NCBI GenBank assembly: GCA_963556145.1
Contig: OY744471.1
Span: 3,713,590 to 3,777,589, forward strand
DNA: 64,000 nucleotides
Direction: 5' to 3'
Origin: Hygrocybe punicea
Lineage: Eukaryota; Basidiomycota; Agaricomycetes; Agaricales; Hygrophoraceae
The position numbers were made by a program, and so were the translations under genes. The notes beneath the pieces are model-generated. The model was given only the letters and a program-made list of their open reading frames with translations. It searched no databases and was not told where the DNA came from. Below, in pieces: positions 12,006 to 63,404 of this stretch (positions are counted from its first letter, which is position 1; every line of letters begins with the position of its first letter).

Positions 12006-12017
12006 CATCAGGGAATC
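12006..12017 (+). repeat. Outer terminal inverted repeat, left transposon
   Basis: CATCAGGGAATC; pairs with 31022-31033 (10 of 12 bases). Preceded by CA (12004-12005), the proposed 2-bp target duplication. Confidence 0.75.
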
Positions 12018-12734
12018 AACCCAGATATGAGATGGTTATATATGCCTTGAGCTGACCCACAATCATTAACATTGTTTGACATTATGCTCACACTTAGATC
12101 TAGGTAGGGATGGCATGGTTGTGATGGTAGAAGTCAATCAAATTAGTAGAATGATATTTGATGTGCCATAGATCAACAACACATGTCTTTGAACATCATT
12201 CCTCCAAGAAAAGGGAGGTCATGGTGGGGTTGAAGGAATCCCACCATATATAGCAGAGTGGTAGAATCTGAACTTTGCTTGAATGAAAGTCATAACTGTG
12301 CCATGGATCAACAAGGCGTGTCCTTGAATATCATTCCTCCAAGAAAAGGAAGGTCATGGTGGGGTTGAAGGAATCCCACCATATATAGCAGAGTGGTAGA
12401 ATCTGAACTTTGCTTGAATAAAAGTCATAATAGCCAAAACAAGAGAGTTATTGTCCATTTGCTACCACAACAACAGTATGGTACCATAGCTCCTTACCAC
12501 ACAGAAATACTGTTCTGCTCATGTAGCAACTAATGCATCATATTGTCATGGCTGATATACTGATGATAGGGGATGTAGCAATGACTTCATGTTGGTAGGA
12601 AGTCAGCAATATTCTCATACTGGACTCCAGGAATATCCGAAATAGAAGGCAAAAACATATATTTGGTGAACGTCCGAAAAATGAGAAAATACAAAGCAGC
12701 GTCACACATGAACTATTCCTGACCCATTGATACT
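12018..12734. repeat. Subterminal region with ~135-bp tandem duplication
   Basis: No gene seen. A unit of about 135 bp starting CATTCCTCCAAGAAAAG is present twice (starts at 12197 and 12332) in this arm and once in the right arm (about 63120-63215). It includes CCACCATATATAGCAGAGTGG, a short partly palindromic AT core. Copy-number change at a subterminal repeat is common in CACTA-like transposons, whose transposases bind subterminal repeats. Confidence 0.7.
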
Positions 12735-14158
12735 CTACTCGGGATTCACGTCGCCTAATGTGAACATATTATCTGCGCGCCTCTTCTCCTTGATGCGAGA
12801 GAGAGCGCTTCCTTCAATTGGTACTTTGGTGTCAGAGCACACATGGGGGATGATTTTCCTATAAAAAGCCTTTGTCAGAATGTTGTGCAGAACCACATTC
12901 AAAGGCGGAATGAAGATTCACTCACCTATTCCACCAATTCAAAAGGTCTTGCACTTCATCCTTCTCCTCCGGATCATCGAGTAGGTCAAGAACACTGTTA
13001 TAGAACATCTTGGAATCGGTGACAAGATCTGTACGCGAGAAGGTGCTTGAAGAACACAAGGCGAAGCGAACCTACGAGGTCGTCAGCGACAGCGTTATTG
13101 AAGATTAGCGAGACTACCTGAGTACCGATGTACACCAGCGACGCCTTTGTGACACAAGTCATGCCATGGATGCGTGCATTTCCCGATCGTGTAGCTTTTG
13201 GTTCATCCTCGTCAACTGAACTCGGCGAGGTAAAGACATGTTTGAATCCCTATGTCACCCAACGTGAGGAATAGAAAGCAAACGACAGAATGAAAACTAA
13301 CCGCAACCAGGAGCTGACTCCTCAATAGTCCATTCCAAGGGTCGTCAGGATCATACGCAAGGTCAGCATATAGAAAGATGGGCCATTGGTCGCCGCAGAC
13401 GTGCGTTTCACCACTGCGGAGCTTCTCTTTGACACTGGGAGTAGTTTCAGCCCACAATGTCATACCACACAATAGTGGCTTACCTGGGTATAGACCAATC
13501 TATTCCGGCGGGGCAGAGTAAGGCGCCCGTTCTCTCATGGTGGAACCCACGAGTCGTCTTGACTTTACAACTGAGGGATGGAGCGAGAGTCTGTCCCGGC
13601 AGAGTAATCCAATCAATAATCGCAAATTTCAATGTTTTGGTGTCGTCAGTGCGCGCTCCGTTCATGCCTTTCTGTATCTAAACGATGGCAGGTATGATGA
13701 CCGTAAGATGGCTGAAGACAGTTTACTAACCATATTAGCAACAAACTCGACCTCTTCGTCAGTTCCAGATAAAAGCCGTTCCTCGAGGCCAACACAAATC
13801 TTAAGCAATTCCCGAAACAAATTATCCTCACGACGTTCGCTTCCGGAAACATGGACATGAGAACTGAATTGTCTGTCTCCTGGCATGAGCACTTACCATA
13901 CTGTCTCGGGGGGTCTTGCGTCTTCCTCTGCCAAGCGAAGGAGGCCATTTGTGATGAGTACCTTGACATTGCAGAACGCATAAGACACTCGACCGAAGTG
14001 ACGGCCGTGATGTACCAGGGGATCGGTGATGGCACTGTCTAATCATGTCAGCAGGCACGACAAGGATACTTAATGATCGCTAACGCTTTCTTCCTTGGGC
14101 CGCTTTGTAGTGCATCATCTCGCACCCGCCGACCAGTCAATGCTTCCGTCCCAGACAT
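12735..14158 (-). CDS. DUF6698-like protein, left copy
   Basis: Multi-exon gene; the start at 14158 gives MSGTEALTGRRVRDDAL. Conserved blocks in order: ITDPLVHHGRHFGRVSYAF with VLITNGLLRLAEEDA; LFRELLKICVGLEERLLSG with DEEVEFVA; a block with DDTKTLKFAIIDWIT, then TTRGFHHERTGALLCPAGID; VKEKLRSGE with DQWPIFLYADLAYDPDDPWN and GLLRSQLLVA; and a C-terminal exon with DLLNWWNR and IFPHVCSDT. This is the pattern I associate with DUF6698, a basidiomycete-specific family of unknown function often found in repeats near transposases. The frame is open through all exons in this arm, so it may still be expressed. The family name is from memory; the block order and introns are seen directly. Confidence 0.65.
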
Positions 14159-14425
14159 TGTTGCCTAGCTCGAAATCTGATGATAGAGGAGGATATGAGA
14201 TGATCTTTGCCAAAACTGCAGCCTTTATAAACAGTCGTCTGGAAATGAAATCTGGCAGAGATTAATGTCGAGATACATAATAGAACTCCGCCAACTGTGA
14301 CGGACCTCAGAAAATGTAATGCATTATTGGTGGGTGTTGAATATGCACAAATATACACACCCGACAATTTACTAGTAGCTCCTGGCAACTGATAAGTTGT
14401 TAGACGTGACTTCGAAACGGAAAAT

Positions 14426-14890
14426 ATGCCCACCTCCGAAAAGCAAGTCGCCAAACGACATAACGAGGACAATATTGAAGTAACCGTGAGGTGTGTTGCT
14501 CCCTACACCATAGAACTTCTTCATCGAGTATCATCTCAGGGTCATCCGGAATAAAAAGGCTCGTCGCACGATGGACGAAGGGGATAACGATCCTGTTGTT
14601 ACGGAAGGTCACAATGGTCAGTCATCATTTCTCATTTCACTAATAATGAAAGGTCCTACCGACGCCGTGTAGAAGCCAAGATCAGGGACATGAATGAACA
14701 ACTCCTGAAAGCACAACAAGAACTCCGCTCCGCACAAGAAGACATTCAAGTGCTGACCCTGAAACTCATAGATTGTGAGGCGAAGCTGGAGAGGGCGGAG
14801 TACATCGGGAAGCTTGCCTGGAAGTATATCCCAGAAGAGAAGCATGCCGACTTCCACCTCGAATGGCCTTGCAAACAACACATTACTTAA
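14426..14890 (+). CDS. Small coiled-coil protein, left copy
   Basis: Three exons fit: 14426-14485, 14514-14616 and 14673-14890, about 126 residues. The N-terminus is polar (MPTSEKQVAKRHNED), followed by a basic stretch (RVIRNKKARRTMDEGD). The C-terminal exon is a clear coiled coil with heptads (MNEQLLKAQQELRSAQEDIQ and LIDCEAKLERAEYIG), ending PEEKHADFHLEWPCKQHIT. It is transcribed away from the DUF6698-like gene. A basic region followed by a coiled coil could suggest a dimeric DNA-binding protein, but no bZIP leucine pattern is convincing. Function unknown. Confidence 0.55.
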
Positions 14891-14957
14891 ATTATTTTCA
14901 CGAGTAACAACACGTATTTTTAACATACAATTACGCGACTTCCCCATATGACCATCC

Positions 14958-16454
14958 TTACCAGAATACCTCGGCTGCAGGCACGACGTGTGTCCGGGAG
15001 CGTAAAATATTTTGATTGCATACTGAAACCAAAATCTACACGGCTTGGTACCACATACCTGCGTGGCTAACCCAATACTCATCCAAACCGTAATATACGG
15101 ACGCGGTCATTGGGTAACTAAGATACCGGCAAAGAAGAACACCCACGTCATCGAAAATGTGCTCGTATGCCGAGTTCATTTTGAGAGCTTTGTCGGCATG
15201 CGCACAGTTGCAAGCCCAGATTGCCTGCAGTAAATTAGTTCTACTTGCAAGCTGCTGAGAAAAATTACTTACCAAAAGTCCGGCTATTTGGACGAGATTC
15301 AGGGGGACCTTCGGTTTTCCATCCTGTTTAAACAGCCAGTACGAATGGATAGACGTATTCCCATGGCCAAGAAATATTACAGTGATAATATCCGAGACGA
15401 TGACACCCCCTAAATTGACAGCAGGGACGACGTTCTGAATGGTATAATTAGAGGGATACTAGGACCGTTAAGAGGCGACTTACGAATATGGACGGCTCGT
15501 CTAGGCAGGATACCTGCCGAAGACTATCCATAGGTCCGTAATGCCCGCCCCAGATATGAGGAATGATGTGTGTTTTAATGGCGTTTTGAATCCGTTGACG
15601 GGCCATAAAAAAACCAGCCGTAATCTGCAAAAAAAAGAAAAAAAGCGTTGAAGACAACTTAGTACAGCATGCTTATTTACCTCTTTGAGGATCATGGGGT
15701 GGGGACATTCCACCGTACCAAATCTGACATAATGTCCTAGTCTGCTATCCGTCTTGTCTGGTAAAAACAAATCAATACAAGTCGTGAAAATGAAACGTAA
15801 CGTACCATATAGTGGCTGCCAGTAGGGCTCGCCTCGAGACCGATGAAGATACAATGCTGAGACAAATAGTTCCTGATGTCCATTCAGGAGTCATTGTTCC
15901 TCGCTGCAAAACCACGAATAACACGGGATGCCGACTTCATATGTTCCCTTTGCCACTTGCACGAGTGCCAACCAATCAGATGACTGAGCAACGTCTTTGG
16001 AGGTTAGCGCGGTGGTAAAACTGCCATCTCGATAAGACGGAGACGCAGGTATGGGGATGCAGGTGTAATGGTGTTGAACATCTTGGAATGTTACGAGATT
16101 GGTATCGGAGAGGATCACCGGAGGTGGCAAAAATCCGGAAGTGTGGGGGATCGTGACCGATGTTGCATGTGAGTTGAGTACCTGGGCCTGCACGGAGGAC
16201 GATGAGGAGGCCGCAGTTGAGACAGGCACGAGTGAAGAGGTTGAGCTTTGCACAAAAGGCAGCAAGTGATCGTCCGATAACGGTGACGACGACGTGTCGA
16301 GTGAATTCAGGGAAAGATTAGTCTAAGGACGGCGATGCATTCATTTCATGAGTGTCGAGGATGGCATATCATCTGAATCACTTACCCAATCAGGGTGGAA
16401 GAAAGTAAGGAGATCATTCAAGTTGTCGTCGCAATTGAGGTCGAGATCAGACAT
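14958..16454 (-). CDS. Possible DUF6532-like protein, left copy
   Basis: About seven small exons; the start at 16454 gives MSDLDLNCDDNLNDLLTFFH. A Ser-rich N-terminal part (PLSDDHLLPFVQSSTSSLV...) leads to FQDVQHHYTCIPIPASPSYR, then GEPYWQPLYDKTDSRLGHYV, a segment AGFFMARQRIQNAIKTHIIP, then VIVSDIITVIFLGHGNTSIH with VPLNLVQIAGLLAIWACNCA and a helical C-terminus (FDDVGVLLCRYLSYPMTAS). The order 'I...I..IFF...S...F...(V/I)P..LV.(I/L)A' resembles DUF6532, a family seen with DUF6698 in agaricomycete repeats; this is a weak resemblance. The left copy has CGA where the right copy has a TGA stop. The start lies just downstream of a 30-bp tandem repeat. Confidence 0.45.
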
Positions 16455-16928
16455 GAGGGTATAACGATGGTATAACGGGGTGATGAGGATATAATGTTGA
16501 TATAATGGGGTAATGAGGATATAACGATGGTATAATGGGGTAATGAGGATATAACGATGGTATAACGGCGTAATTCCGATTCGTCTTTGCTTCAATGCTT
16601 ATTACATTCTTCAATAAAGCAACTAAATTTAACTAAAGCTTGCTTGTACTAGCAATTAAACATTACTACAAATTTAGAGTAATTGGGATTGGAGTAGCGA
16701 CAAGTCGTGGCGTTGTTTGTATTATTATAGTGCTCACCTGAGGGCAGGTTCTGGTCGGGTTTCCCCGAATACCAAAACGGGTTCGAAACCGCCCTGAGGT
16801 GTCAGCTATGGTTCTCGGCTAAATGATAGTCAATCACTTTCTTCCGCAACTCTAGTAGTCTAGCAGTCAAGTAGTTAGTACAATTATTTTTCGTAATTCA
16901 ACGTCCCAATTGTGAATTCGCACCGATC
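16455..16928. repeat. Divergent intergenic region with 30-bp minisatellite and hairpin
   Basis: Between the divergent DUF6532-like and Spt5-like genes. At 16455-16575 about four units of a roughly 30-bp AT-rich repeat (GGTATAACGGGGTAATGAGGATATAACGAT type) end at the DUF6532-like start codon; the right arm has one more unit. At 16735-16801 an imperfect inverted repeat (CACCTGAGGGC...GCCCTGAGGTG) could form a hairpin of about 67 bases and contains GGTTCGAAACC. The region presumably holds both promoters. Confidence 0.65.
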
Positions 16929-19683
16929 ATGACTTCGAATTACTGCAAAGGTGGTTACAAACGACGAAGAGTCATGGTGGGCTACAACTCAGACTCGGAG
17001 GTCACGGTGAGCATACCAATGCGGCCCAGGACCATTCCCAGTGCCTGAACCTTCGTTCTTAGCATAATAGTGTCACCAAATTCCTGGACCTGCATGCGCA
17101 TGACCACGACGACACGGACACAGACACGGATTCAAATTTAAATTATGATTCAGAGATGAGCTCGGAGTCACCTGGTAAATCATCCCCATCTCGTCCTCTG
17201 CAATTTGAGGACTTTATGGATCTAGGGTCAGACGCCGACTCAGAGTCTGCGCCGCTCGCAACCGAGCGTTTCTGGGCCCAGCGGCCAAGTTATCAACATT
17301 CACTTCGGGATGAGCACGAAGAACTGGCAAGCCAGGCGGAGTGGCTCAAAGAGAAATATCAACGGAATAGTGTCATCCCTACTATGCTTGATTCGACTCC
17401 CGACACTCAATTGCGGGTTCTCGATGAACCTCATGCTGGAGACATGAATCTTTGGTGCATTAGCGTCAAGGTGAGTGGTCTAATAAGTCTTTGCTACTCA
17501 ACTTGACGTTGCTGTTTGTTATAGCATGGGTTGGAGTTGGATTGCCTGGAATTTCTTCTTCGCAAATGTGGCAGCACTGATGGCTCGAGTCTGACGATCG
17601 CTTCCGCCTTCTGGCAACCATCCATTCCAGGCGCTATCTATGTCGAAGCCCCAAGTACTGGGGATATTCGACATGCTTTTGCACACATGCACATAGTCTA
17701 TGTTGATCGGGAAATTAGCCTCGTGCCCCTGCCTGAGCGCGTGCAACTTCTCGAGTTGAAAACAGTGAACTCAGCCATGACTGTGGCCGAAGGTGACTGG
17801 GTGCGTACCAGGAGTGGCACGTACAAAGGGGATATTGGTTATGTCATGGAGGTGGTCACATACAGTGCCAAGGTTAGAGTGTTCCTTGTGCCTCGCCTCT
17901 CCTACCTCGAGCCTTCCAAGGATCTCAAGCGCTTGCCGAAAACTCGTCCTCTTCCCGCGCTGTTTGATGCCGACCGAGCCCGCAACATTTTTGGTACCGA
18001 AGCTGTTCAACAGGGCAAAGATTGGCTCACATTCCAGGGGATGAAGTTTAAGGATGGCTTTTTGGAACGATGGGTTAATGTTCACACCTTGAACACAAAG
18101 AATGTCCATCCTACTTTTGAGGAGATCAAATTGTTCAACGCGAGTTCGAGATGGTGTAAAGTGGCCAGGCATTGGTGGAATGTCGAGGACACCATTGCTT
18201 CATTGAGCGTTAACAATCGCATCAAAATTATTAAAGGAGAGCTGAAAGGACTTCGCGGTATTATTACCTCCAAGGATGTCAACTCAGTGCAAGTGCACCT
18301 GCGCAAAGATGACAATGATGCTCTGAACGAGGACCAACTAGTTGAGGTTCCAGCACATCAGATTCATAAATCTTTCAGTGTTGGAGACTATGTTCGTGTA
18401 CGACTGGGCGTTCACACTGGTAAATCGGGTTTTATAGTGGGCATGTCTAGTGATTACATTTTGCAAATTACTACGGCGTCAGCCGACTCGCGATTTAACA
18501 ATATAGAGGTAAAGGCATTGCTCCCATGTAGATTCTCTTGTTGACATCGTCTTGACCAGTCAAACCTCGTTCATTCGGTTCCTGATCATATAGAAGTGCA
18601 TGCCTTCCATGTCGATTTCGCGGAGCAGAACCGTTTACCGAGGCCCCTGGCCAGAACCATTACCCAACGCCCCGTCATGCAAACCATCAAAGATCCAGTA
18701 GCCGGAAAGAGGGTGCTCGTGGTGGGGTTGAATAAATTTTGTGGGTATCATGGGACCATCATACACACCCATGAACATCTCAAAATGTATGACGTCCGCA
18801 TGGATGCTAATGGCAAAGTCATGCGATTTAAAGAAGACTTCTTGGTTCAGATATCGTAAAACTCATGTTTATATTCCTGTTCCATAAGGCGCCTGACTTC
18901 TGCTTGATGCAGGAATCGCAGGCCGCTATATTATTTTCAGGATGCCCCGCCAGAAGCTTCCCAGCTGGTATTGCTACCATCCCTTGAATCGGTTGTTCCC
19001 AGGCCCTCAATGCCCATGTGGGAATCTCCTTCGGCCCGGGATGGAAGTCCTGCTTTGGAACCTTCTTCCCAAACACCACTGCCAGACTGAGATTCTCTGT
19101 CAACAGCCCTCTTAGAGCGGCTAAATCGTGGGGAACCCAGCTCTCAGGATCCCTCAATACAATGGCCAGGGAAAGTTATAAACAACGATATAGAAGAAAG
19201 AGGGGTATCCTTACCGTCGGGTACTGTTCCACTATTGTCACATTTCCCCTTCACTGACTCCTTTGCACAGGTGTCCACAAAGACTGGCTTGCCATGCAAA
19301 GTTTGCACGGAAAATTGATCAAATTGCGTGTATCAGGCTTCAACAGCAATCTGGGCGGCTGGAGAAAAGGTATTAGCGAAGGCACCGTCGCCCGCACTTT
19401 GGGCATGCCTGTCAGCGGTGATCCACCAGAAATTGAGATCAAGCCGATGATTCCGGGCGCTGATACAGTTCTGATCCTGTTGTGTTACCTTGAACCAGTA
19501 CATCCCTGGGGTGCCAAGGAAAAGGCGGTTTGTATTGCTGGAGATCATCAAGGAGTAGATGTAGTCGTTGTGGAAGCCGGAGAATATCTGTGGCGTTTGG
19601 CGCCGTTAGATAATCCTCGCTGCCCTCTATATACCGCTCCGCGTGAGCATCTCATAATTTTAACAAATTTGATAGTATCATGA
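16929..19683 (+). CDS. Spt5/NusG-like KOW-domain protein, left copy (one nonsense codon)
   Basis: Spt5 (NusG in bacteria) rides on RNA polymerase and controls elongation. The start at 16929 gives MTSNYCKGGYKRRRV, then an acidic Asp/Ser-rich N-terminus (HDHDDTDTDTDSN, PSRPLQFEDFMDLGSDAD), as in Spt5. An NGN-like domain follows: LWCISVK, LELDCLEFLLRKC, IPGAIYVEAPSTGDIRHAF. KOW motifs are VAEGDWVRTRSGTYKGDIGY, NNRIKIIKGELKGLRGIITS, VGDYVRVRLGVHTGKSGFIV and GKRVLVVGLNKFCGYHGTII. It ends with a Pro/Ser-rich linker and a further block (WLAMQSLHGKLIKLRVSGFN, EGTVARTLGMPVSG). About seven exons. In the linker exon, TGA at 19088-19090 replaces the CGA found in the right arm, so this copy would lose its last block. 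It diverges strongly from a housekeeping Spt5 and is transposon-borne. Confidence 0.7.
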
Positions 19684-19804
19684 ATTCAATCCTTTCTTTC
19701 CAATCTTAAATCGCAAGCCTGTGTGACAGGCCGTGGAATAACATTATACGCATGAAAACAAAAAATTTGTAGTTCAAAAAATTGAAGGGCAACAGAAAAG
19801 CGAG

Positions 19805-20361
19805 TCACCCTTGTTGGAAACTACGCGAAAAAGTCCCAAATACCTCCTCTTCGCTTTCCAGATCCTCCTCCTCTTGGCTCTGTGACGCCTTCAACAATGT
19901 GTCCTTCCCCTTCTGACTGAAATGTCCAAAACTTCCAGCGCCAACTTCAAGATGGATTGTGAGGTCACGGGGAGTGAGGTCGAGAGGAAGGGGAGGTGGC
20001 TCTGTGTTGTGGTAAAGCCAGTAAAGGTCATGGTGTACTGGCTCACCCCGAGACCCAGCGATTCTGAATTCCTCCATAACGAGTTGGTCTTGTATTTTCA
20101 TTAATTCATCCAGCTGCTGCACTAGTGTAGTGCGCATAGTCTGCTTCTTCTGGGAAATTTTGCTTAAAGATTGCTGGAACTCGGATGTTTGGCTCATATG
20201 GATAAACTACAACAATCGTTATCAGTTCCTGGTCGTGTTGGAGATTCAAGACTCACTATAGTGGGATCCAGCCCATAATCATCTTTGAAGAAAGGATGTT
20301 GGAAAAGATAATTCTGAACAGCAGCGAGTTGAAAGCAATCCGTCTGATTGAGATAGTACAT
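19805..20361 (-). CDS. Small charged protein, left copy
   Basis: Two exons (20257-20361 and 19805-20206) joined by a 50-bp GT...AG intron; about 168 residues. Exon 1 reads MYYLNQTDCFQLAAVQNYLF and PFFKDDYGLDPTI. Exon 2 has a helical stretch (FQQSLSKISQKKQTMRTTLV, QQLDELMKIQDQLVMEEFRI) with likely coiled-coil character, a Pro-rich middle (NTEPPPLPLDLTPRDLTIHL) and an acidic tail (SQEEEDLESEEEVFG). The family is not recognised. It is divergent from the REB1-like gene (229 bp between starts). The copy in the other arm encodes the same protein. Confidence 0.5.
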
Positions 20362-20589
20362 CGTTATTTACAAGATAGGAGATAGGAGTAGTAGGCGGAG
20401 ACACTGAGGATAGTGGAGTTTTACAAGAGATGCCCTGAGGTAACATTGCATTTCCAGGATCATGTGCCAAACTCGGTCTTTTTCTTGTACACAATATATG
20501 TTGAGTGAGACTTGGAATAATATCAAGTAGAGTGTTGTAGTCTGTGATCAAAAACTTCCCGGTTATTTAGACAAATTAGTCACTCCATC

Positions 20590-22407
20590 ATGCAGTCTGA
20601 CGGCGACATGGGTAGACAATGGGAAGAAATACTGGACGCCGAAGTGAGTACAGCACACCATGATATAGCTCATTTGTCGTCTCAGTGGCACTCAGCTGAG
20701 GCCTTACGCGCAGAAGAACAAGTTGCAAAGTTACAAGTCCGTGACGCCGAGCCTGTCAGGTGAAATGGAATCTATCCCCTTTGTTGAGGCCGTCTTGCTA
20801 GCTGCCAATGCTGCATTTGAGGCCGAAACTAAGTCTAACACAATTTCAAGTTGGCCTCCTGCAAAGGACAGAGGGTTCATCATTCGTGGAGAAAGTGGTG
20901 ATACAGCTGGAGGCAATCCAGTTGTACATGATCCAGGCATTGACTTAGGTGAGCAAAATTTCCGGAGACCGGTTTGTATCTGATCCATCTCAGATCATAA
21001 CGCGAATGATACTATTATCCCACTACCACATGACGACGCTTTTCAACCACTGGCAATTATCGAATGTCCAGTAAAAGAAAACACCCCGGAGCATGTGGAG
21101 TTGTTGACAAAGAAGTGGCTAACTCCTAAGCCACTAGCCGACTTAGCTTGAAATGAGGGTCTCATTTACCGAAAGGGCAAGTTTTCAGCAGATGAAACCC
21201 ATATGGTGGAAGTGGCCATTCAAGCATACCAAACGGTGCGGAATTCACGATTGTCTTCGACTCTCACAAGCTAACCCTGAAACTCTTCTCATAGCGGAAA
21301 TCCATCAATTCTCAACAGTTATTACGAATAATATTTCTGAAAGAAGCCAGCCATGATGACGAATTCTGGTCAGCCATAGGTATAATCGCCAGTTAGCTCC
21401 TTGCCCTTCAAGTCCCCTTTTAAAATAATTTGCTAGCTTCTGTCATCCCAAATCGTTCTCTAATGGCCGTGTACCAGCATGTTCGTAGATCGCGTCAACC
21501 CTACAGTAAACAAGGTCCTTGGTTGCCGCATGAAGATATGGATCTGATCCAGTTGGGTTTTCTTCTTATCTTATGCCTGGCGCTGAATGACTTTCTAGAG
21601 CTGTGGATCAGCATGGCGAACATTGGGAGGTTGTAAGTCACAAGGTTGGCAGGTCCAGTAACAACTGCCGGGACCACTACAGGAATCATATCAAACATCG
21701 TGACTTGTGAGCTAAGGGTGAGTAACGAGAGCTCTATTATACAATGTACTCACCCGAACTTTCTTAGGTCGCTGGACCAAGGCAGAAGAAGAAGATTTAA
21801 CCAGGATCATGATGGAGATGACACCTGAACTAAGCGAGAACTTCATCAATGACTCCACTATCAGCTGGTATGCAGTGAGCAAACGGATGAATCACAGACG
21901 CGGAAGACAGCAGTGCAGTTCCAAATGGTCAATTATTTTAATGAAGACGTTGCTTTGACTGATTGTCTACATTTAGGAGAGAGTTAACAAAAATCATGAA
22001 AAATGGGGGTACCAGGCCGAAGTGGTCCTATGAAGATGCCTCCAACCTTGTCGAACTGTACGTAATGAATAATAAAATCACGTTCAGTCTTCTGGTTCCG
22101 CCTACATTCATCTCCAACTATTTAAACTTCAACAGCATCAATGCAATGAATGTCACAATCGATGCAGATATCAACTGGAGCTGACTCGTAGATTCCTATG
22201 GCGCCTTATGGAATGCCCGTTCACTTCAAAAAAAGTGGGAAACACTGAAAGGTTGTGTTGATGGAGTGGAATGTATGAGCCTTCGAGGTTCGTTAATATG
22301 ACTCTGATGCCCCTAATGTTCATTCATGTTGATTATTTTTCTCAGACATTGTCGACGCTCTCCGAACGAAAAACATTCCTGGGGCATTGACTCATAGTCT
22401 CAGTTAG
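20590..22407 (+). pseudogene. REB1/TTF1-like Myb protein, left copy, nonsense-mutated
   Basis: REB1-type Myb factors bind DNA at pol I/pol II terminators and block replication forks. About nine exons. Recognisable blocks: GLIYRKGKFSADETHMVEVA (entry to the Myb region), SVIPNRSLMAVYQHVRRSRQ, PYSKQGPWLPHEDMDLIQ, then across an intron AVDQHGEHWEVVSHKVGRSS with NNCRDHYRNHIKH, then RRWTKAEEEDLTRIMMEMT and WYAVSKRMNHRRGRQQC. It ends ALWNARSLQKKWETLKGC and DIVDALRTKNIPGALTHSLS. The tandem Myb/SANT repeats with W..VS..VGRS..(N/D)CRD(H/R)YRNH are the REB1 pattern. An in-frame TGA at 21149-21151 (context GCTTGA, expected CGA Arg) precedes the Myb repeats and is shared by the right arm. Exons were placed by eye. 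Confidence 0.65.
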
Positions 22408-22683
22408 CGCATGGTGCCAGAGTCCGCAGCAGTTCATGATTCATCGTTCTTTATGTTCACTTATTATGCTCTCGTATTTGACAATTCGTATATTACATCC
22501 ACATTGAAACTCAGTTGAACAAACTAAGTTAGTTTCTTCGTGACCACTACCTGAGCCAGCGTATTCGACCAAGAGATTCCTTGCACATGTTATCATTCTT
22601 TGGGTAAGTGATCTGCCTACGCTTGGATCTTTTCTAACACCAATATTTTTATTAGTAATATTGTCAGCCCATAGCAGAGTCCA

Positions 22684-25600
22684 ATGGATCGGGACTCTGC
22701 ATTCAGCCAGACCTGTTCTTGCGGCAGGACATTTTCAGATGTTCGGGCATTCAAGAATCACCAGAACATTTGTAAGAAAACCAAGAAACGATTGTCCCAT
22801 GCGTTGGCGAAAGCAAAGGAGGTTCTAGCTGTCAGAAAGCGGAAGGCTATCACTCTAGATACAACCATGGAGCCATTTGCGAACACCATTGACGATGATA
22901 TCAGTCAGAATCTTCAGCTTGAGCCCGGGCATGTTCAGGTACGGAACCATGGCAGTCCTTCATACAATTGTCGCCATTCATGTGGGTCTGCAGGATCCAA
23001 CCTCAGCTATGACAGAAATCCAGGATGATGCGAGACCCACAAGGCGTCGCAAACTTCCTCTTCGTTTTCGTGTCGCGGGTCTTCAATTGCATGATAAGAG
23101 GCTGAAAGATATTCTTCCACAGCCAGTTCCTGCACTACCGCCACCTGGTATGGACGTTCCAGACTCAGCAACTCATTCATTGGATTCATTGATGAATCCT
23201 ATCTTGACTTCCCAACACCGCCGCAATGGTAGTGCTGGTAAAGCATCAGGAAATCCACCTGTTCGCCGAATCCTTAATACTGCAAGAAATTCTTTTGGCC
23301 TGTTTTGTTGCTACTTTGCCGAGACATTTCCATCTCATGATCCAGAAAGCGAGGTCAACGTATCATCTCTATCCAATATAATCGACTCTAGTTCTGCTCA
23401 TTCACACCCCCCTGATATTCTTCCATCGTTTCGACCTTATCCAAACCAGAACTCTTTTCTACTAGGTGATTGGTATTGGAATTGGGGTGCCCAGAAGTCT
23501 CAGCAGGATTTCAAAGAGCTCCTTGCTATTGTGGGTGATGATGATTTCAGACCTACAGACGTCCAAAAGACAAATTGGGACAGGATCAACGACCAGTTAG
23601 CGCTTAATGATTGGGACAAGGAAGAGTGGATTGACGAAGATGCTGGGTGGAGGACGTCGCCTGTAACAATATCAGCACCCTTCCATCGTTTCACGGATAG
23701 GCCTGGTGCCCGTGATTATACTGCTGCAACCTTCCATTATCGATCATTGATATCGGTCATTCGGGAAAAACTTGTGAATTCCATCGATTATCGCCATTTC
23801 CATTACGAGCCCTATGAGCTTGTCTGGCAGCCAACCAACAACTCACAAGAGGTGCACGTCCATGGCGAACTGTATACATCACCTGCATTCATCGACGCTC
23901 ATTGTTCCCTGCAAAATTCTCCTCTGGAACCTGGCTGCGATCTTCCACGCATCGTCGTTGCGTTAATGTTCTGGTCTGATTCAACTCATTTGACAAATTT
24001 CGGAAACACAAAACTTTGGCCATTATACATGTTCTTTGGAAACGAATCGAAATATCGACAGTGTAAACCTTTGTGCAATGTATGTGAACATGTGGCCTAT
24101 TTCGAGACTGTATGACTTTTTCATGTTCCTCAATATTCCTTACTGATTCGCCGTTAGCTCCCGGACTCATTCAAAGATTTCGCAAGCAAGTATACTGGCA
24201 CAAAGAAGCTGAAAAAGACCTTCATGACTCACTGCCATCGCGAATGCATTCACGCCCAGTGGAAAATCATCCTCGATGATGAATTCCTAGAAGCTTATAA
24301 ACATGGCATCATGATCGAGTGCTGCGATGGGGTGTTGCGCAGGTTTTATCCTCGGATATTTACATACTCGGCAGACTACCCCGAAAAGTGAATGGTTCTC
24401 TTTTTATGCTACTGATTTACTAACTCGCAGACAATAGGATCCTTCTAGCCAGCATCAGAAATTTGGGTCAATGTCCATGCCCACGTTGCACCACGCTATT
24501 GTCAAATGTGCATATGGTGGGCACCAAAAAGGACCGGCACAACAGGATCAAGTTGGCCCGCATGGACGATGAGCGACGCCGATTCATGGTCACCCAAGCT
24601 TGAAATGCCATCTATCAGAAAAACTACGCAGTTGACAGTGCCCCTGTAGAATGAATCCTCAAGCCTCAGTCTCTTGTTCCTACCTCGGTGAGGTTATTCA
24701 ACTTTGGACTTTGCGATTCTTACTCGGAACATTCCTCTGTAGAATGCCTTCTCTGAACGGCTCTCTAAATTGGGATTTAATCTTTTTTTGATGTTTTTGG
24801 TTGATCTGATGCATGAGATCGAACTTGGGGTATGGAAGACCTTATTGATCCACCTCTTTCGAATCCTCGAATGTGCCGATGAGAACGCCCTGCATGAACT
24901 GGATCGTCGGTAGGTAGTTCCTGTATATTTCACTGTGTCTCTAATGGTGCACACAGTTTTCGATTGGTTCCAACTTTTGGGAGGGACACAATTAGGTGTT
25001 TCGCTTCCAATACGTCAGAATTGAAGAAAATGGCTGCCAGAAACTTTGAGGATTTTCTGCAGGTATGTCAAATGCATTATCTCACTGGAACATCGAAATT
25101 AAGCAGGAGGCAGTGTGCAATTCCAGTTTTCGAAGGTCTATTACCAGAACCCCATAACAGGAGAATCCTGAAACTCCTCTTCACCTTCGCCCACTGGCAC
25201 GGGTTAGCCAAACTGCAAATGCACACCGATACCACACTTTCTATTCTCGATCATGAAACGACTATCCTGGGACAACAGCTTCGCGATTTCCAATCCAAAA
25301 CCTGCCACCATTTTCAGACGCGTGAATTGAAGTCCGAAGCAGCTGCTAGACAACGCCGTCAAAGCAAGAAAGGGATGACGGTTAATTCCTCTCTGCCAAC
25401 GACCAGCAAGCGAAATCCAGAAGCTGCTAACCAGCACCTACCCAAAACGCTGAATCTTCAGACCTACAAGGCCCATGCTCTGGGTGACTATGTAGATGCC
25501 ATCAAGAGATATGGCACGACAGATTCGTACACTTCAGAAATCGTGAGTGTTTTATTTCGTCTCCACTGACCATCAACCTGATCTCTTCTACTACTGCAGG

Positions 25601-32891: not shown

Positions 32892-32899
32892 ATGGTATC
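32892..32899 (+). repeat. 8-bp target duplication, outer hAT element (left)
   Basis: ATGGTATC; identical to 35240-35247. Confidence 0.85.
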
Positions 32900-52600: not shown

Positions 52601-53563
52601 CCACAACATCGACGACGCCGACATCAAGATATACTCTGACGGCTCAACCCTCGACGATGGCGTAGGGGCAGCAGCCGTACTGTACCGCACTGGAAGATCC
52701 CGGCCTAAAGTCCTCTGTTACCACCTGGGCTCCAGCACGGACCACCACAATGTCGAAGCAGAAAACGTAGCCAGCCTACTTGCCCTACAGTTACTTAGCC
52801 GCGAATCTCGTTTACGCTCCACCTCCATATACATCGACTGTCAGCCCACCATAAACGCGCTAATCGCACCCTACACGAAATCCGGGCAACACATCCTCGA
52901 CACCTCCCGTGCCCTCACGCGGCACCTGGTCGACACTAATCAACACCTCACCATCACTCTCAGATGGATCTCGGGCACGAAGGGGTAGTTGGGAATGAGA
53001 GAGCTGACTCCGAAGCTAAGAAAGCAGCGAGAAACGACCCCAGTCCACGTCGTACATTACCGGTCGCCCTCCGCAGCGGCACCCTCCCTTCTAACACATT
53101 GGCCATCAAACTCACATTCAGCAGACACCTCACAAACCTCTGGCGTGAGGAATGGCACCAGTCACCACGCTTCGTACGCTTCTCCCGCATTGACCCTGAC
53201 TTCCCTTTACGCAATTTCCTTAAAACCGCTGACAATCTAACACGACCGCAGACAAGCCTCCTCACCCAGCTACGCACTAACCACATCCCCCTTAATGCTT
53301 ACCTACACAGAATCAACAGATCCGACACCAACGCCTGCCCCAAATGCGAAATGGCCATCGAGACCGTCCAGCACTTCCTCTTCGAATGTCCTGCCTACTT
53401 CCACGCGCGGCACAAGCTCACCAACGCACTCAGGAACCAAGCCCGTTCTCTCTCACACCTCCTCAATGACCCCAGAGGCATTCAAGAACTCATCAAATTC
53501 ATACGAAGCACAGGACAATTAAAAGCCTCATTCGGTGACCTCACCTCCCCCACGCTCACATAA
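49582..53563 (+). pseudogene. LINE ORF2: endonuclease, reverse transcriptase, RNase H; two frameshifts
   Basis: Frame 1 (49582-51126): APE-type endonuclease with IWQINLNKSAKAHWDLIN, LLLLQEPYFDYYGN, WCGDFNRHHPLWDE and PTGTDHIPILTAI. Frame 2 from about 51000: reverse transcriptase with KVQPHKVPGPDGIPN, AYRPIVLLNTLPKLL, HHFGGRPGHTTTNSMHVLTH, ILFADIEGAFPNAV and NGIGQGDPISMIIYLFYNAD. The catalytic box reads AVAFVNDVAYYVEG, so the first Asp of FVDD is Asn (codon AAC, 51759-51761). RNase H starts at IKIYSDGSTLDDGVGAAAVL. A second break lies near 52970 (WISG / HEGVVGNERADSEAKKAA). The C-terminal zinc motif is CPKCEMAIETVQHFLFEC. The two breaks each look like a single missing base. The D-to-N change alone should kill polymerisation. 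Confidence 0.85.
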
Positions 53564-54192
53564 CTAACACACTCTTACACAGCATACCTCTCTCTCCCCG
53601 CTCGTCCACATTGGGACATCTCCCTGTCACACGCACGCTTAACAAAATCGCAATAAGCACCTGACCCACCACCCGCATAACCTCTCACCCTCGACCACTC
53701 ACCCAGTGGAGTGGTCCCGAGGGACCTCTCGGGATCAGGGACGGAATCGCATGGAATGGTCAAAGGTGGATGGGATAGAGAACTGTCTACTACATCCAGA
53801 ACTGGCTACTGACTAAGGTCCAGGTCACGTGACATGACAGGCACCACTACTACACCGGCCATCATATCCTTTCTTTTTTGTTTACTTTTCTCCCTGTGAC
53901 AGCCCCCTCCGTGCATGTCCGCCCAGGCGGCCGAGCACTTAGCTCGTCTAGACCACCCGTACTCCACCACCCTGCTCTAGACATTGGGCCCCCTCACACG
54001 TCAGGTCAGGCGTTTAAAACAGCATGGACATGCTGGGACCACGGGGGACTTATTCCGTCGTGGTTGCACTCGCAAACCAGAGGCACAGGTTCCAGGAAGG
54101 CTCCCATATTTGTATATACTCTTGCCCATGTACATAAGGTCCGACATAGGGCTCGCCCTGAGGGACAATAATATGACTTAAAAAAAAAAAAA
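53564..54192 (+). other. LINE 3' untranslated region and poly-A
   Basis: No gene. It ends with TTAAAAAAAAAAAAAA just before the target duplication. Confidence 0.75.
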
Positions 54193-54206
54193 AAGCAGAA
54201 GTCAGG
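54193..54206 (+). repeat. 14-bp target duplication of the LINE (right)
   Basis: AAGCAGAAGTCAGG; matches 47627-47640. Confidence 0.85.
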
Positions 54207-55862
54207 CGCCTTATGGAACAGGAATATAAACATGAGTTTTACGATATCTGAACCAAGAAGTCTTCTTTAAATCGCATGACTTTGCCATTAGCATCCATGC
54301 GGACGTCATACATTTTGAGATGTTCGTGGGTGTGTATGATGGTCCCATGATACCCACAAAATTTATTCAACCCCACCACAAGCACCCTCTTTCCGGCTAC
54401 TGGATCTTTGATGGTTTGCATGACGGGGCGTTGGGTAATGGTTCTGGCCAGGGGCCTCGGTAAACGGTTCTGCTCCGCGAAATCGACATGGAAGGCATGC
54501 ACTTCTATATGATCAGGAACCGAATGAACGAGGTTTGACTGGTCAAGACGATGTCAACAAGAGAATCTACATGGGAGCAATGCCTTTACCTCTATATTGT
54601 TAAATCGCGAGTCGGCTGACGCCGTAGTAATTTGCAAAATGTAATCACTAGACATGCCCACTATAAAACCCGATTTACCAGTGTGAACGCCCAGTCGTAC
54701 ACGAACGTAGTCTCCAACACTGAAAGATTTATGAATCTGATGTGCTGGAACCTCAACTAGTTGGTCCTCGTTCAGAGCATCATTGTCATCTTTGCGCAGG
54801 TGCACTTGCACTGAGTTGACATCCTTGGAGGTAATAATACCGCGAAGTCCTTTCAGCTCTCCTTTAATAATTTTGATGCGATTGTTAACGCTCAATGAAG
54901 CAATGGTGTCCTCGACATTCCACCAATGCCTGGCCACTTTACACCATCTCGAACTCGCGTTGAACAATTTGATCTCCTCAAAAGTAGGATGGACATTCTT
55001 TGTGTTCAAGGTGTGAACATTAACCCATCGTTCCAAAAAGCCATCCTTAAACTTCATCCCCTGGAATGTGAGCCAATCTTTGCCCTGTTGAACAGCTTCG
55101 GTACCAAAAATGTTGCGGGCTCGGTCGGCATCAAACAGCGCGGGAAGAGGACGAGTTTTCGGCAAGCGCTTGAGATCCTTGGAAGGCTCGAGGTAGGAGA
55201 GGCGAGGCACAAGGAACACTCTAACCTTGGCACTGTATGTGACCACCTCCATGACATAACCAATATCCCCTTTGTACGTGCCACTCCTGGTACGCACCCA
55301 GTCACCTTCGGCCACAGTCATGGCTGAGTTCACTGTTTTCAACTCGAGAAGTTGCACGCGCTCAGGCAGGGGCATGAGGCTAATTTCCCGATCAACATAG
55401 ACTATGTGCATGTGTGCAAAAGCATGTCGAATATCCCCAGTACTTGGGGCTTCGACATAGATAGCGCCTGGAATGGATGGTTGCCAGAAGGCGGAAGCGA
55501 TCGTCAGACTCGAGCCATCAGTGCTGCCACATTTGCGAAGAAGAAATTCCAGGCAATCCAACTCCAACCCACGCTATAACAAACAGCAACGTCAAGTTGA
55601 GTAGCAAAGACTTATTAGACCACTCACCTTGACGCTAATGCACCAAAGATTCATGTCTCCAGCATGAGGTTCATCGAGAACCCGCAATTGAGTGTCGGGA
55701 GTCGAATCAAGCATAGTAGGGATGACACTATTCCGTTGATATTTCTCTTTGAGCCACTCCGCCTGGCTTGCCAGTTCTTCGTGCTCATCCCGAAGTGAAT
55801 GTTGATAACTGGGCCGCTGGGCCCAGAAACGCTCGGTTGCAAGCGGTGCAGACTCCGAGTCG

Positions 55863-55866: not shown

Positions 55867-56026
55867 TGCAGCAGGTGCTGCTAGCCCTAGGACCCCGGAG
55901 ACCCTTATCCAGTAGATTCCCTTTCCTGTAGTAGCTTAGTCATCCATCCTTGGGTTTCCTCAGCTTTCCCCTCCCAGCCGCAGCTCCCCCTGAGCTCTTC
56001 CCTGAGGTCCGGAGATTCCCCCTCCA
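55867..56026 (+). repeat. 5' LTR (160 bp)
   Basis: Starts TGCAGCAGG, ends CCCCCTCCA (TG...CA rule). Differs from the 3' LTR (58115-58274) at two positions, both CG/CA transitions, so the insertion is young. A possible primer-binding site starts with TGGTGATGAGAG at 56030. Confidence 0.8.
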
Positions 56027-56331
56027 ACGTGGTGATGAGAGAGATTCGAGCCACGCACCCGTAGGACCAGACCTCGAAAGGATCAAAAGACAAAATTTCG
56101 AATATTGAAGGAATTCAACCAGGAACCCAACAGGACGCGCAAACGAAGCGCAAAAACACATCAGAATTAACAGCATCTCCTCACCCATCTCATTTATACT
56201 CGGTCTCATCTATTTCTCGTTGTTCCCTCAATTTCTCGTCTTCAAATTTGGTCCAACTTTATTTTCACGCACCCAATTTTTGTTTTTAATTTTACTCCCG
56301 TTTATCCAGTCGAACATCGGACTTCTACACT

Positions 56332-58065
56332 ATGGCACCCAAAACACGAAACCCCAAGGTTATCAAGACGGAAAAAGAACTCCACGCCGAACGCGACGCG
56401 CGGATACTCGAACTGCAAAAATGGTTAGCGGACAAACGCGAGGAGAAAGAGAAAAACGCAGGGAAAATGACGAAGGAAAAGATGAGACAGAAAGAAAAAC
56501 AAGCACGACGAGTACTCCATCGTACAACAGAAGGTACGCACCTCGAGACAACAGCCCAGGACTCACCACAGGCAGAGAACATGCGACCAACGACGAACGC
56601 GAAGTCGTTCGCGTCCCCCGTGCTACCAACCGCGTCCCAGGTCCCCACAACGTCGACGGCACCCCCATTTGCCATGTCACCAACCCCAGCGTCGTCAGCA
56701 CGCATGCCAACAACGGCCGCAAAACCATTCGCGTCCCCCATTCTACCAACGGCGTCCCAAGTCCCCACAATGTCAACGGGAACCCTGTCTCCCATTTCAC
56801 AGGCCCCAACGCAGCCCGCATGCGCCCCAACAAGCCCACCATCGTCCAACGCGACCGCCACGTCACCACTTGCCCAAACGTCGCCGCTGCCGCGTATGCA
56901 ACCAACGGCACCCCAAAACGCAACAGGGATACCCAGAATGCCCCACTCACAGCCCCATCGTCCAGCCCCGTCGCCGTTGACCCAAGGACAGCCAACGCGA
57001 GCAACCGCGTACGCAAATGAACCCCAGTCCAGACCAGCTGCCGCAACGTCACCAACGAACGCAACGCCCCGTGAAGCACCACCGGCACCCCAGCTGCAAT
57101 CCCAACGTACGGCCCTGCCCCTGTTGACCCAGAAACCACGGACGCCAATGCCGGCGTGTACGAACGTGCCCCAGCCAAACCCATCCGCGACTGCCATGTC
57201 GCCACCAACACCGACGCGTTGATACACGCCCCACACCCCATTACCACCCCAGAACGCGTCGATAAAACCCACACCACGCCCCCGAGGTCCAACAACACCC
57301 CAAAATGCGTCGAAAAGAGCCCTAGAGACGCCCCGCACACCAGTTGTGCCCCAGGGCGCCCAGCGAACGCGAACAGAGACGCCCCAGGCCCCCTACACGC
57401 CCCAAAACGCGCCGCAAGTGGCCCCACAGATGCCCCATACCCGAACAAAACCCCAGAACACCTCGCAAACGCACCCTGGCGCCCCCCAACGTGATATACC
57501 ACCCCCCCAAGCACTACCATCAGCCCCCGTTTTTCTATCTCAGCTTAGTATATATAAACGCGATTTTTCAGACTTATGCACAGGTGCTCGACCGTGGAGC
57601 AGCACCCACCGCCGTAACCGTCGCCTGTTACCCCAACGCCACGCCCATCACCTGTTTCCCGGCCCAGCCGTACAACCCCCTCACCAACCAGTCCCCACCG
57701 AGATTACTCCACCAGTCACACTGCCCCCACGACTTATTGATGCAGGTACCCAGACCACACAGGACGAACTGCCACCATCTTTGCGATACGAACTAACCCG
57801 AACAGACCTTGCCCAAGCCCTCGATATAGCAGTCCCATCGAATTTCGGCCGACTTTGCCATATAGCCAGGCTTACATGGGGATCAGACCAGGATCCACGA
57901 TTTACGAAACTACTAGGTCTCCCACGCAACCACAGGACGTTTTTGGAGGTTTTGGTTGAGATGATGCACCCTTTCAGGAGTGACCCAGATCCCGTTTTTG
58001 CACCAGTTCTGGTCCCAGTAGTAGTGAGGATAGTAGAGGATTGGGTAGAGTTTTGTGGAGGATGA
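56332..58065 (+). pseudogene. Pro/Thr-rich gag-like protein of the LTR element, one nonsense codon
   Basis: About 578 codons in one frame from ATG 56332, broken by a single TGA at 57220-57222 (GCGTTGATAC, expected CGA). The N-terminus is strongly helical and charged (KTEKELHAERDARILELQKW, REEKEKNAGKMTKEKMRQKE). A long low-complexity Pro/Thr/Ala region follows. The C-terminal 100 residues look folded (LPPSLRYELTRTDLAQALDI, NFGRLCHIARLTWGSDQDPR, NHRTFLEVLVEMMHPFRSDP). I do not recognise the domain. A structural (gag) role is inferred only from its position between LTRs. Other long frames on both strands here are products of the repetitive GC-rich composition. Confidence 0.5.
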
Positions 58066-58114
58066 GATGCAGGAGATGTGTGCGAGGGCACACACCATTG
58101 TGGAGGGGGGTATC

Positions 58115-58274
58115 TGCAGCAGGTGCTGCTAGCCCTAGGACCCCGGAGACCCTTATCCAGTAGATTCCCTTTCCTGTAGTAGCTTAGTCATCCATCCTTG
58201 GGTTTCCTCAGCTTTCCCCTCCCAGCCGCGGCTCCCCCTGAGCTCTTCCCTGAGGTCCAGAGATTCCCCCTCCA
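58115..58274 (+). repeat. 3' LTR (160 bp)
   Basis: TGCAGCAGG...CCCCCTCCA; 158 of 160 bases match the 5' LTR. Followed by GCGT (58275-58278). Confidence 0.8.
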
Positions 58275-61120: not shown

Positions 61121-61387
61121 ATTTTCCGTTTCGAAGTCACGTCTAACAACTTATCAGTTGCCAGGAGCTACTAGTAAATTGTCGGGTGTGTATATTTGTG
61201 CATATTCAACACCCACCAATAATGCATTACATTTTCTGAGGTCCGTCACAGTTGGCGGAGTTCTATTATGTATCTCGACATTAATCTCTGCCAGATTTCA
61301 TTTCCAGACGACTGTTTATAAAGGCTGCAGTTTTGGCAAAGATCATCTCATATCCTCCTCTATCATCAGATTTCGAGCTAGGCAACA

Positions 61388-62812
61388 ATGTCTGGGACGG
61401 AAGCATCGACTGGTCGGCGGGTGCGAGATGATGCACTACAAAGCGGCCCAAGGAAGAAAGCGTTAGCGATCGTTAAGTATCCTCGTCGTGCCTGCTGACA
61501 TGATTAGACAGTGCCATCACCGATCCCCTGGTACATCACGGCCATCACTTCGGTCGAGTGTCTTATGCGTTCTGGAATGTCAAGGTACTCATCACAAATG
61601 GCCTCCTTCGCTTGGCAGAGGAAGACGCAAGACCCCCCGAGACAGTATGGTAAGTGCTCATGCCAGGAGACAGACAATTCAGTTCTCATGTCCATGTTTC
61701 CGGAAGCGAACATCGTGAGGATAATTTGTTTCGGGAATTGCTTAAGATTTGTGTTGGCCTCGAGGAACGGCTTTTATCTGGAACTGACGAAGAGGTCGAG
61801 TTTGTTGCTGATATGGTTAGTAAACTGTCTTCAGCCATCTTACGGTCATCATACCTGCCATCGTTTAGATACAGAAAGGCATGAACGGAGCGCGCACTGA
61901 CGACACCAAAACATTGAAATTTGCGATTATTGATTGGATTACTCCGCCGGGACAGACTCTCGCTCCATCCCTCAGTCGTAAAGTCAAGACGACTCGTGGG
62001 TTCCACCATGAGAGAACGGGCGCCTTACTCTGCCCCGCCGGAATAGATTGGTCTATACCCAGGTAAGCCACTATTGTGTGGTATGACATTGTGGGCTGAA
62101 ACTACTCCCAGTGTCAAAGAGAAGCTCCGCAGTGGTGAAACGCACGTCCGCGGTGACCAATGGCCCATCTTTCTATATGCTGACCTTGCGTATGATCCTG
62201 ACGACCCTTGGAATGGACTATTGAGGAGTCAGCTCCTAGTTGCGGTTAGTTTTCATTCTGTCGTTTGCTTTCTATTCCTCACATTGGGTGACATAGGGAT
62301 TCAAACATGTCTTTACCTCGCCGAGTTCAGTTGACGAGGATGAACCAAAAGCTACACGATCGGGAAATGCACGCATCCATGGCATGACTTGTGTCACAAA
62401 GGCGTCGCTGGTGTACATCAGTACTCAGGTAGTCTCGCTAATCTTCAATAAGGTTGTCGCTGACGACCTCGTAGGTTCGCTTCGCCTTGTGTTCTTCAAG
62501 CACCTTCTCGCGTACAGATCTTGTCACCGATTCCAAGATGTTCTATAACAGTGTTCTCGACCTACTCAATGATCCGGAGGAGAAGGATGAAGTGCAAGAC
62601 CTTTTGAATTGGTGGAATAGGTGAGTGAATCTTCATTCCGCCTTTGAATGTGGTTCTGCACAACATTCTGACAAAGGCTTTTTATAGGAAAATCTTCCCC
62701 CATGTGTGCTCTGACACCAAAGTACCAATTGAAGGAAGCGCTCTCTCTCGCATCAAGGAGAAGAGGCGCGCAGATAATATGTTCACATCAGGCGACGTGA
62801 ATCCCGAGTAGA
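61388..62812 (+). CDS. DUF6698-like protein, right copy
   Basis: Mirror of 12735-14158; the start at 61388 gives MSGTEASTGRRVRDDAL. Open through all exons, with several amino-acid changes from the left copy (for example VSYAFWNVK here against VSYAFCNVK, EEVEFVAD against EEVEFVAN, THVRGDQWP against THVCGDQWP). It ends KRRADNMFTSGDVNPE. Both copies of this gene look usable, unlike the transposase. Confidence 0.65.
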
Positions 62813-63392
62813 GTATCAATGGGTCAGGAATAGTTCATGTGTGATGCTGCTTTGTATTTTCTCATTTTTCAGACGTTCACCAAATATATGTTTTTGCCTT
62901 CTATTTCGGATATTCCTGGAGTCCAGTATGAGAATATTGCTGACTTCCTACCAACATGAAGTCATTGCTACATCCCCTATCATCAGTATATCAGCCATGA
63001 CAATATGATGCATTAGTTGCTACATGAGCAGAACAGTATTTCTGTGTGGTAAGGAGCTATGGTACCATACTGTTGTTGTGGTAGCAAATGGACAATAACT
63101 CTCTTGTTTTGGCTATTATGACTTTTATTCAAGCAAAGTTCAGATTCTACCACTCTGCTATATATGGTGGGATTCCTTCAACCCACCATGACCTCCCTTT
63201 TCTTGGAGGAATGATGTTCAAAGACATGTGTTGTTGATCTATGGCACATCAAATATCATTCTACTAATTTGATTAACTTCTACCATCACAACCATGCCAT
63301 CCCTACCTAGATCTAAGTGTGAGCATAATGTCAAACAATGTTAATGATTGTGGGTCAGCTCAAGGCATATATAACCATCTCATATCTGGGTT
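62813..63392. other. Outer subterminal region, right copy
   Basis: Mirror of 12018-12734 but with a single copy of the ~135-bp unit. No gene seen. Confidence 0.6.
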
Positions 63393-63404
63393 GATTCCCT
63401 GATG
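63393..63404 (-). repeat. Outer terminal inverted repeat, right transposon
   Basis: CATCAGGGAATC on the minus strand. Followed on the plus strand by TC (63405-63406), the proposed 2-bp target duplication. Confidence 0.75.

Follow-up and report, generated by a model that had tools for sequence, protein, structure and literature searches.

A 64,000-nucleotide stretch of the genome of the basidiomycete Hygrocybe punicea (GCA_963556145.1; OY744471.1:3,713,590-3,777,589, forward strand), which we refer to as the window, contains a palindrome of about 51 kb. The palindrome very probably arose when a gene-bearing transposon of about 19 kb, PlavakaB, inserted twice in opposite orientation and the inverted copies later underwent an exchange; the same genome contains an amplified sister family of this transposon. 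On the sequence evidence, we read the palindrome as two opposite-orientation insertions with a reversed host segment between them, and not as one giant element. Its palindromic form is a chance product of these insertions and of the inversion between them. The left and right copies are called L and R, and the transposon to which they belong is called family I.

The palindrome and its host spacer

Self-BLASTN of the window gave an opposite-strand match of positions 12005-31033 with 63405-35499; identity within the aligned blocks ranges from 96.7 to 99.9%. The innermost of these blocks extends over 12,142 bp with 12 mismatches, far above chance. CATCAGG stands at 12006 and 35499, and CCTGATG ends at 31033 and 63404. 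All flanks of the two units, four in number, differ from one another. These results confirm the large inverted repeat described in an earlier note on this DNA. Unit L (12006-31033, plus strand) is 19,028 bp long, with its 5' end at 12006 and its 3' end at 31033; these ends are exact, and relatives elsewhere have the same ends together with target duplications. Unit R (35499-63404, minus strand) is inverted, and it is 27.9 kb long owing to two later insertions at 47641-54193 and 55867-58274. The description of two units of about 19 kb, given in that note, is thus correct for L and not for R. Between the units is a host spacer (31034-35498).

The earlier note also took the whole palindrome for one giant composite element, and this proposal did not survive the analysis. 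A CATCAGG end is found at both outer termini of the 51 kb, but in each case it is the 5' end of the unit. Furthermore, the outer flanking dinucleotides do not match, CA versus TC, and the one other near-full copy of the spacer has no arms; the last two observations exclude a single element of 51 kb, to which we assign a negligible probability.

Two features of the spacer count against our reading. As assembled, and read in its own orientation, L is flanked by CA...GA and R by GA...CA, so neither unit has its own duplication. When the spacer is reversed in silico, both duplications fit, CA/CA and TC/TC, crosswise to the assembled arrangement. The orientation can be compared with a paralogue, L028 (C39:3831000-3838500; C-numbers are contigs), about 58 kb downstream, which represents the site of R without R. 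In L028, the reverse-complement match of 31034-32903 (96.8%) joins directly to the match of 63405-64000 (97.8%), and the spacer is reversed relative to this empty site. TC occurs there once, and a reading frame of 288 amino acids (4308-5174) crosses the insertion point. Judged from this frame, the right host flank (63405-64000, plus strand) is the rest of a host gene whose other part sits in the reversed spacer. The second unfavorable feature concerns L. The paralogue diverges 115 bp before the insertion site of L, so that the evidence for the flip at L consists of one 2-bp match. L028 does not contain the hAT-like element of the spacer; its host segment C39:3833525-3836114 is 95-98% identical to that of the window, with neither a Plavaka unit nor the hAT-like element. 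The paralogue is a segmental duplication that predates the Plavaka and hAT-like insertions.

L and R differ at 87 aligned bases, of which 85 fall within 12135-19478 and two, 22966 and 22968, in the next 11.5 kb. A matching identity step is not seen between L and the four other loci described below, where the identity is 93.2-98.5% throughout in 1-kb windows. This step fits conversion or crossing-over between the inverted copies, which would also flip the spacer. Alternatively, the inverted insertions may be real while the assembler joined the spacer the wrong way round through the near-identical inner arms. The inner 11.5 kb offers just the two positions to tell L from R, and if the spacer is turned round, the host gene and both duplications reappear. 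But 22966 and 22968 are about 8 kb from the spacer, and more differences are found from 19478, within ordinary long-read reach; we consider such a misassembly unlikely, though it deserves serious weight. A more radical possibility is that the entire palindrome was created in assembly, for example from a hairpin read or by fusion of two haplotypes at their ends, since assembly errors can take the form of long inverted repeats. Here, however, each arm stops precisely where the transposon ends, and the sequences outside the palindrome are not alike. The arms are also set apart by those 87 bases and by two insertions, each flanked by a duplication of its own, and related copies that share these ends occur at other loci. 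The exact termini, the arm differences and the insertions rule out a hairpin, and an artefact of any such kind is hardly credible. We therefore prefer two real insertions in opposite orientation, followed by an exchange that reversed the spacer.

Copies of the unit and a sister family

In the genome searched (42 contigs, 92.2 Mb), parts of both ends of the unit were found at many places, the counts being lower bounds. Four other loci, on C33, C1 (6.48 Mb, C1a), C40 and C39 (1.68 Mb, C39b), align along the unit and cover 17.4 to 19.0 of its 19.0 kb, mostly at 94-97% identity, with single blocks from 90 to 99%. Both ends are kept in C1a (C1:6484704-6505703), with a CC/CC target duplication, in the C40 copy (C40:5541219-5560501), with TC/TC, and in C39b (C39:1675133-1706262), with AGC/AGC. 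On C8 and at another place on C1 (7.73 Mb), the match to the unit is confined to the 5' side within the 30 kb examined. Because the dispersed two-ended copies carry nearly all of the interior and have target duplications, the unit moved as one piece, internal genes included. The earlier note had suggested movement as one unit, to be checked by looking in the same genome for other copies with CATCAGG ends. Such copies exist, with the genes between the ends, and the suggestion is upheld by C1a, C40 and C39b as well as by the empty site of R.

PlavakaB elements have CATCA..TGATG ends, target duplications of 2 or 3 bp and a PF18759 transposase, according to excerpts of Kojima 2025 (PMC12730594). 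All three features are seen here. CATCAGG/CCTGATG ends are present on L, R, C1a, C40 and C39b, and on 17 of the 18 two-ended copies of family II described below, the remaining copy being mutated to CATCAGA. Besides the duplications of the dispersed copies and the crosswise CA and TC of the window, 2-bp duplications flank 17 of the 18 family II copies. PF18759 matches two exon open reading frames (ORFs) of L, with E-values of 3.7e-10 and 2.3e-7, above the curated cut-off. The PF18759 match agrees with the Plavaka identity given in the earlier note, and by its ends and duplications the unit is classed more precisely as PlavakaB. In the same excerpts, some PlavakaB members carry an extra TET/JBP dioxygenase gene, whereas the unit described here has SPT5-like, Reb1-like and DUF6698 genes together with captured fragments. 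The TET/JBP family is not among the Pfam matches of the ORFs of the unit.

Family II, the sister family, is likewise PlavakaB; its elements measure about 25.5 kb and share the gene set of family I but contain different captured fragments. Its 800-bp 5' end has 18 full matches, of which 12, counting the query copy, are 100% identical, and a further match is split. For 18 of these 19 ends, a partner 3' end lies on the same strand no more than 60 kb away. Eight of the resulting pairs measure about 25.5 kb and the others 21-50 kb, where lengths on the minus strand are about 0.5 kb too short. The chance of a 2-bp duplication is 1 in 16 for each copy. A script found duplications at 15 of 17 copies, and those of L041/L042 (GG/GG) and of the C8 copy (GT/GT) were read by eye; the script missed L041/L042 because its 5' end is mutated. 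All 18 two-ended copies have an SPT5-like match at most 12 kb from the 5' end, with no stop in the matched stretch. Apparently, family II spread recently to at least 18 two-ended, near-identical copies. The first 183 bp of its 5' end also recur, separate from the rest, at no fewer than 20 places with 89-91% identity, and these are perhaps short non-autonomous relatives.

Genes, captured host fragments, and decay

A Pfam scan of all 159 ORFs of at least 52 amino acids in L gave Plavaka, SPT5 NGN/KOW, mitochondrial carrier and DUF6698 as the standout families, with a weaker Myb match. The other matches have E-values near 0.002-0.01, under the cut-off wherever a cut-off was printed. Shared genes were read from a translated comparison of L with one family II copy, C8:288711-311846. 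The Plavaka transposase gene (22681-26945, plus strand) encodes an N-terminal C2H2-like zinc finger in addition to the PF18759 domain; its exons are found in family II, and in L the exon at 24436-24693 contains stops. The gene for DUF6698 (12774-14054, minus strand) aligns as seven exon blocks, with one in-frame stop in L and 46-94% identity to family II by block, and PF20414 matches ORFs of L. The SPT5-like NGN-KOW gene (17063-19599, plus strand) matches PF03439, PF23042 and PF00467, as well as family II over 17426-19599, and its exon in L matches solved SPT5 with E = 1.7e-31. The Reb1-like Myb gene (21074-22298, plus strand) aligns as six exon blocks, with in-frame stops in L and 31-55% identity to family II by block. 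The family II Reb1-like exons match solved reb1 (5eyb) with E = 1.3e-22 and also two Pfam Myb families, and the family II DUF6698 exons score 251 bits in Pfam; for both genes, the translated family II exons were put together manually along the alignment. A comparison of DUF6698 with solved structures gave nothing significant, the best E-value being 0.27. Finally, a short ORF stretch (14690-14878, plus strand) is coiled-coil-like and 40% identical in family II. In place of the transposase and about eight other genes counted in the earlier note, homology gives the transposase, three accessory genes, this short conserved ORF and one captured fragment; the other ORFs have no convincing Pfam match.

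The DUF6698, SPT5-like and Reb1-like genes look like genes of the element, since they are common to a second PlavakaB family. They could instead have come from other transposons nested in the common ancestor of the two families. In favor of such an origin, the SPT5/Reb1 block has opposite orientations in families I and II, DUF6698 is itself a very large family, and SPT5-like relatives are abundant, with 108 matches, most of them not near a listed end. But all three genes lie between the ends in both families, and the stop-free SPT5-like match near the 5' end is present in every two-ended family II copy, so we regard a nested origin as improbable and treat the three as element genes.

The named best relatives of the DUF6698 gene are all from mushroom-forming fungi, while the transposase matches are mostly unnamed metagenome proteins. 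Two metagenome contigs (7,680 and 22,147 bp) seem, judging from equal contig sizes, to hold a transposase and an SPT5-like protein together. DUF6698 (PF20414) has 1208 database relatives at E-values up to 0.001, and among the 120 of these that were listed there are many paralogues per species (Suillus, Piloderma, Hypholoma, Hypsizygus), as is typical of a gene carried by transposons. The 108 genomic matches of the SPT5-like NGN-KOW gene range from 23 to 100% identity, and most are away from family I and II ends, in other carriers or as free copies. Distant 3' ends (75-76%) at C7:5627096, C33:5489009 and C6:432714, located 18-24 kb from SPT5-like matches of 35% identity, hint at a third family with the same SPT5-like gene.

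Host DNA has been captured in both families. A mitochondrial carrier fragment in L (27439-28519, plus strand), introns included, is cut inside a 3' exon and is 94.6-96.0% identical to a locus on C35 (L029:1953-3072); in R the same fragment is at 38013-39093 on the minus strand, by conversion of unit coordinates. At the C35 locus, the sequence runs on past the fragment, whose right edge falls inside an exon that continues in the C35 gene, and this gene is the source relative of the captured fragment. The edges agree to within two bases in L, R, C33, C1a and C40, which suggests one capture event. C33 and C1a have an open carrier frame of 273-276 codons, which is disrupted in L and C40. The corresponding zone of family II holds a CAND1 fragment (candidate donor C3:6257030-6258319, 97.3%; E = 6.7e-22 against solved CAND1), and a kinase fragment (PF00069; candidate donor C2:1805671-1807504, 93.4-95.9%). 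The whole 4.9-kb stretch with the captured pieces is present in 16 of the 18 two-ended copies. The matches to 19.7-22.6 kb of the window comprise parts of family I elements and weaker, partial relatives, of which at least some belong to family II copies; no host donor was recognized among them.

L and R are both decayed. In L, stops break the aligned frames of the transposase, Reb1-like and DUF6698 genes. Stops are absent from the SPT5-like exon of L, R and C1a; C33 and C40 have one each and C39b has three. Changes private to one copy are mostly C>T/G>A, and those at CpG number 113 of 189 in C33, 106 of 178 in C1a, 139 of 235 in C40, 174 of 435 in C39b and 11 of 24 in R, which points to decay of methylated copies as their likely source. 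Comparison of L with the four dispersed copies gave ratios of nonsynonymous to synonymous substitution (dN/dS) of 0.33-0.59 for the transposase exon at 22859-24112, 0.35-0.56 at 25897-26553 and 0.65-1.33 at 24898-25566. Constraint on the transposase is thus not uniform across exons, and the values speak of inserted copies decaying, not of the source lineage.

The two later insertions are both inside the SPT5-like gene of R, which they split; one exon ORF of this gene remains at 54554-55573 (minus strand). The first is a long interspersed nuclear element (47641-54193, plus strand) with an endonuclease, a reverse transcriptase, a poly-A tail and a 13-14 bp duplication. The second (55867-58274) is a small element of the long terminal repeat type, with direct terminal repeats of about 160 bp and a 4-bp GCGT duplication read by eye. 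The element at 32900-35239 in the spacer has TAGTGTTGCC ends and an 8-bp ATGGTATC duplication, also read by eye, and from the duplication length we take it to be hAT-like; a transposase was not found in it. Within it, at 33422-34769, are two inverted blocks of CAG/CTG-rich low-complexity repeat. In the left flank, a host ORF on the minus strand (5975-6499) matches the GINS complex subunit PSF1 (PF05916, PF24997).

Proposed history and comparison with known elements

In the history that we propose, a PlavakaB transposon of about 19 kb, with a transposase of the CMC-type DDE class, would have landed on both sides of a short host segment in two separate insertions of opposite orientation. The CATCAGG ends would be cut and pasted with a 2-bp stagger, as the family and the duplications suggest. 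A later exchange between the inverted copies would have reversed the host segment and made the inner 11.5 kb or so of the arms nearly identical. The variable zone between the transposase and the 3' end took in host gene fragments as genomic DNA with their introns, which would fit gap repair with a foreign template. Decay of the window copies was mostly through C-to-T changes, many of them at CpG. From their relatives, the SPT5-like and Reb1-like proteins may act in transcription of the element itself. A broader proposal, which we put forward only tentatively and think doubtful at present, is a PlavakaB lineage with its own transcription kit (SPT5-like protein, Reb1-like DNA-binding/termination factor and DUF6698). 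This kit would allow the genes of the element to be expressed from CpG-methylated chromatin, and the lineage would repeatedly capture host fragments in a single zone 3' of the transposase.

Several other observations do not favor these proposals. The C33 copy has lost its 5' terminus, the duplication of C39b fits 3 bp and not 2, C39b does not have the carrier fragment, and the family II copy L063/L064 has no duplication. The dN/dS of the SPT5-like exon, L against the four dispersed copies, is 0.64-1.01, which gives no clear sign of constraint and speaks against a working role of the protein in family I. In addition, 3 of 87 SPT5-like loci are within 15 kb of one of 123 PF18759 matches, compared with a random mean of 3.2, and so lend no support to a general association between SPT5-like genes and Plavaka transposases. 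This count used 87 of the 108 SPT5-like matches, leaving out second pieces of one gene and weak matches, and the 123 PF18759 rows among those listed of 161 matches; contigs of unstated size were set to 6.5 Mb in the shuffle. The PF18759 search scored 123 of 739 candidates, its list does not include the transposases of either family, and the count is no clean test.

The comparisons with other systems that follow are with excerpts of the cited papers. Starships (PMC12134995), known from Pezizomycotina, are likewise large fungal elements that move several genes as a unit, but they are classified by a tyrosine recombinase, whereas a DDE-type Plavaka transposase, short inverted ends and 2-bp duplications are found here. 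No recombinase family is among the Pfam matches of the 159 ORFs of L, a scan that short exons could escape. The mobilizing enzyme, PF18759, and the absence of a recombinase match rule out membership of the Starships. The likeness in concept drawn by the earlier note is weak: a large multi-gene unit does move as one, but the accessory genes are common to the sister family and the host material consists of truncated fragments. A unit that moves several genes together, with a carrier frame open in two copies, could nevertheless resemble Starships in function, as a carrier of complete, useful host genes between genomes. But each captured piece either breaks off within a gene or represents part of a longer one, two other copies have a disrupted carrier frame, and the mobilizing machinery differs, which makes such a function very improbable.

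Other systems share single features with the PlavakaB unit. In the protist Amoebidium, Plavaka-flanked giant repeats of up to 50 kb (PMC11244446) are also very large, associated with a Plavaka transposase and rich in genes. Enlarged EnSpm/CACTA elements of the red alga Chondrus crispus, of 16-20 kb with 4-5 ORFs (cited in PMC6431247), belong to a related superfamily and are similar in size, with several ORFs, but differ in host, ends and gene content. Plant Pack-TYPE elements (PMC8903248) and fungal Helitrons (PMC4289320) capture and spread host gene fragments, as seen here in both families. Pack-TYPE elements are described as plant-borne and non-autonomous, whereas both families described here include a transposase gene, with stops in L, and the capturing element encodes its own transposase; Helitrons use rolling-circle machinery in place of a Plavaka transposase. 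The text of a fungal co-option screen (PMC10799480) contains none of the terms KOW, Spt5, Plavaka and Myb, and the open-licence literature, searched in excerpts and partly with several terms combined, gave no Plavaka element with SPT5-like or Reb1-like genes.

The unit is thus a gene-rich variant of a known transposon class. With its ends, duplications, empty site, donor-matching loci and amplified sister family, this one genome makes gene capture by a transposase-encoding DDE transposon readable. It also places inside a transposon the SPT5-like and Reb1-like genes and DUF6698, a large, functionally uncharacterized family with many mushroom paralogues. If this is true in other species, many Agaricomycetes genes listed under DUF6698, SPT5-like or Reb1-like names would be transposon genes, and transposons would carry transcription factors in addition to the known TET/JBP genes.

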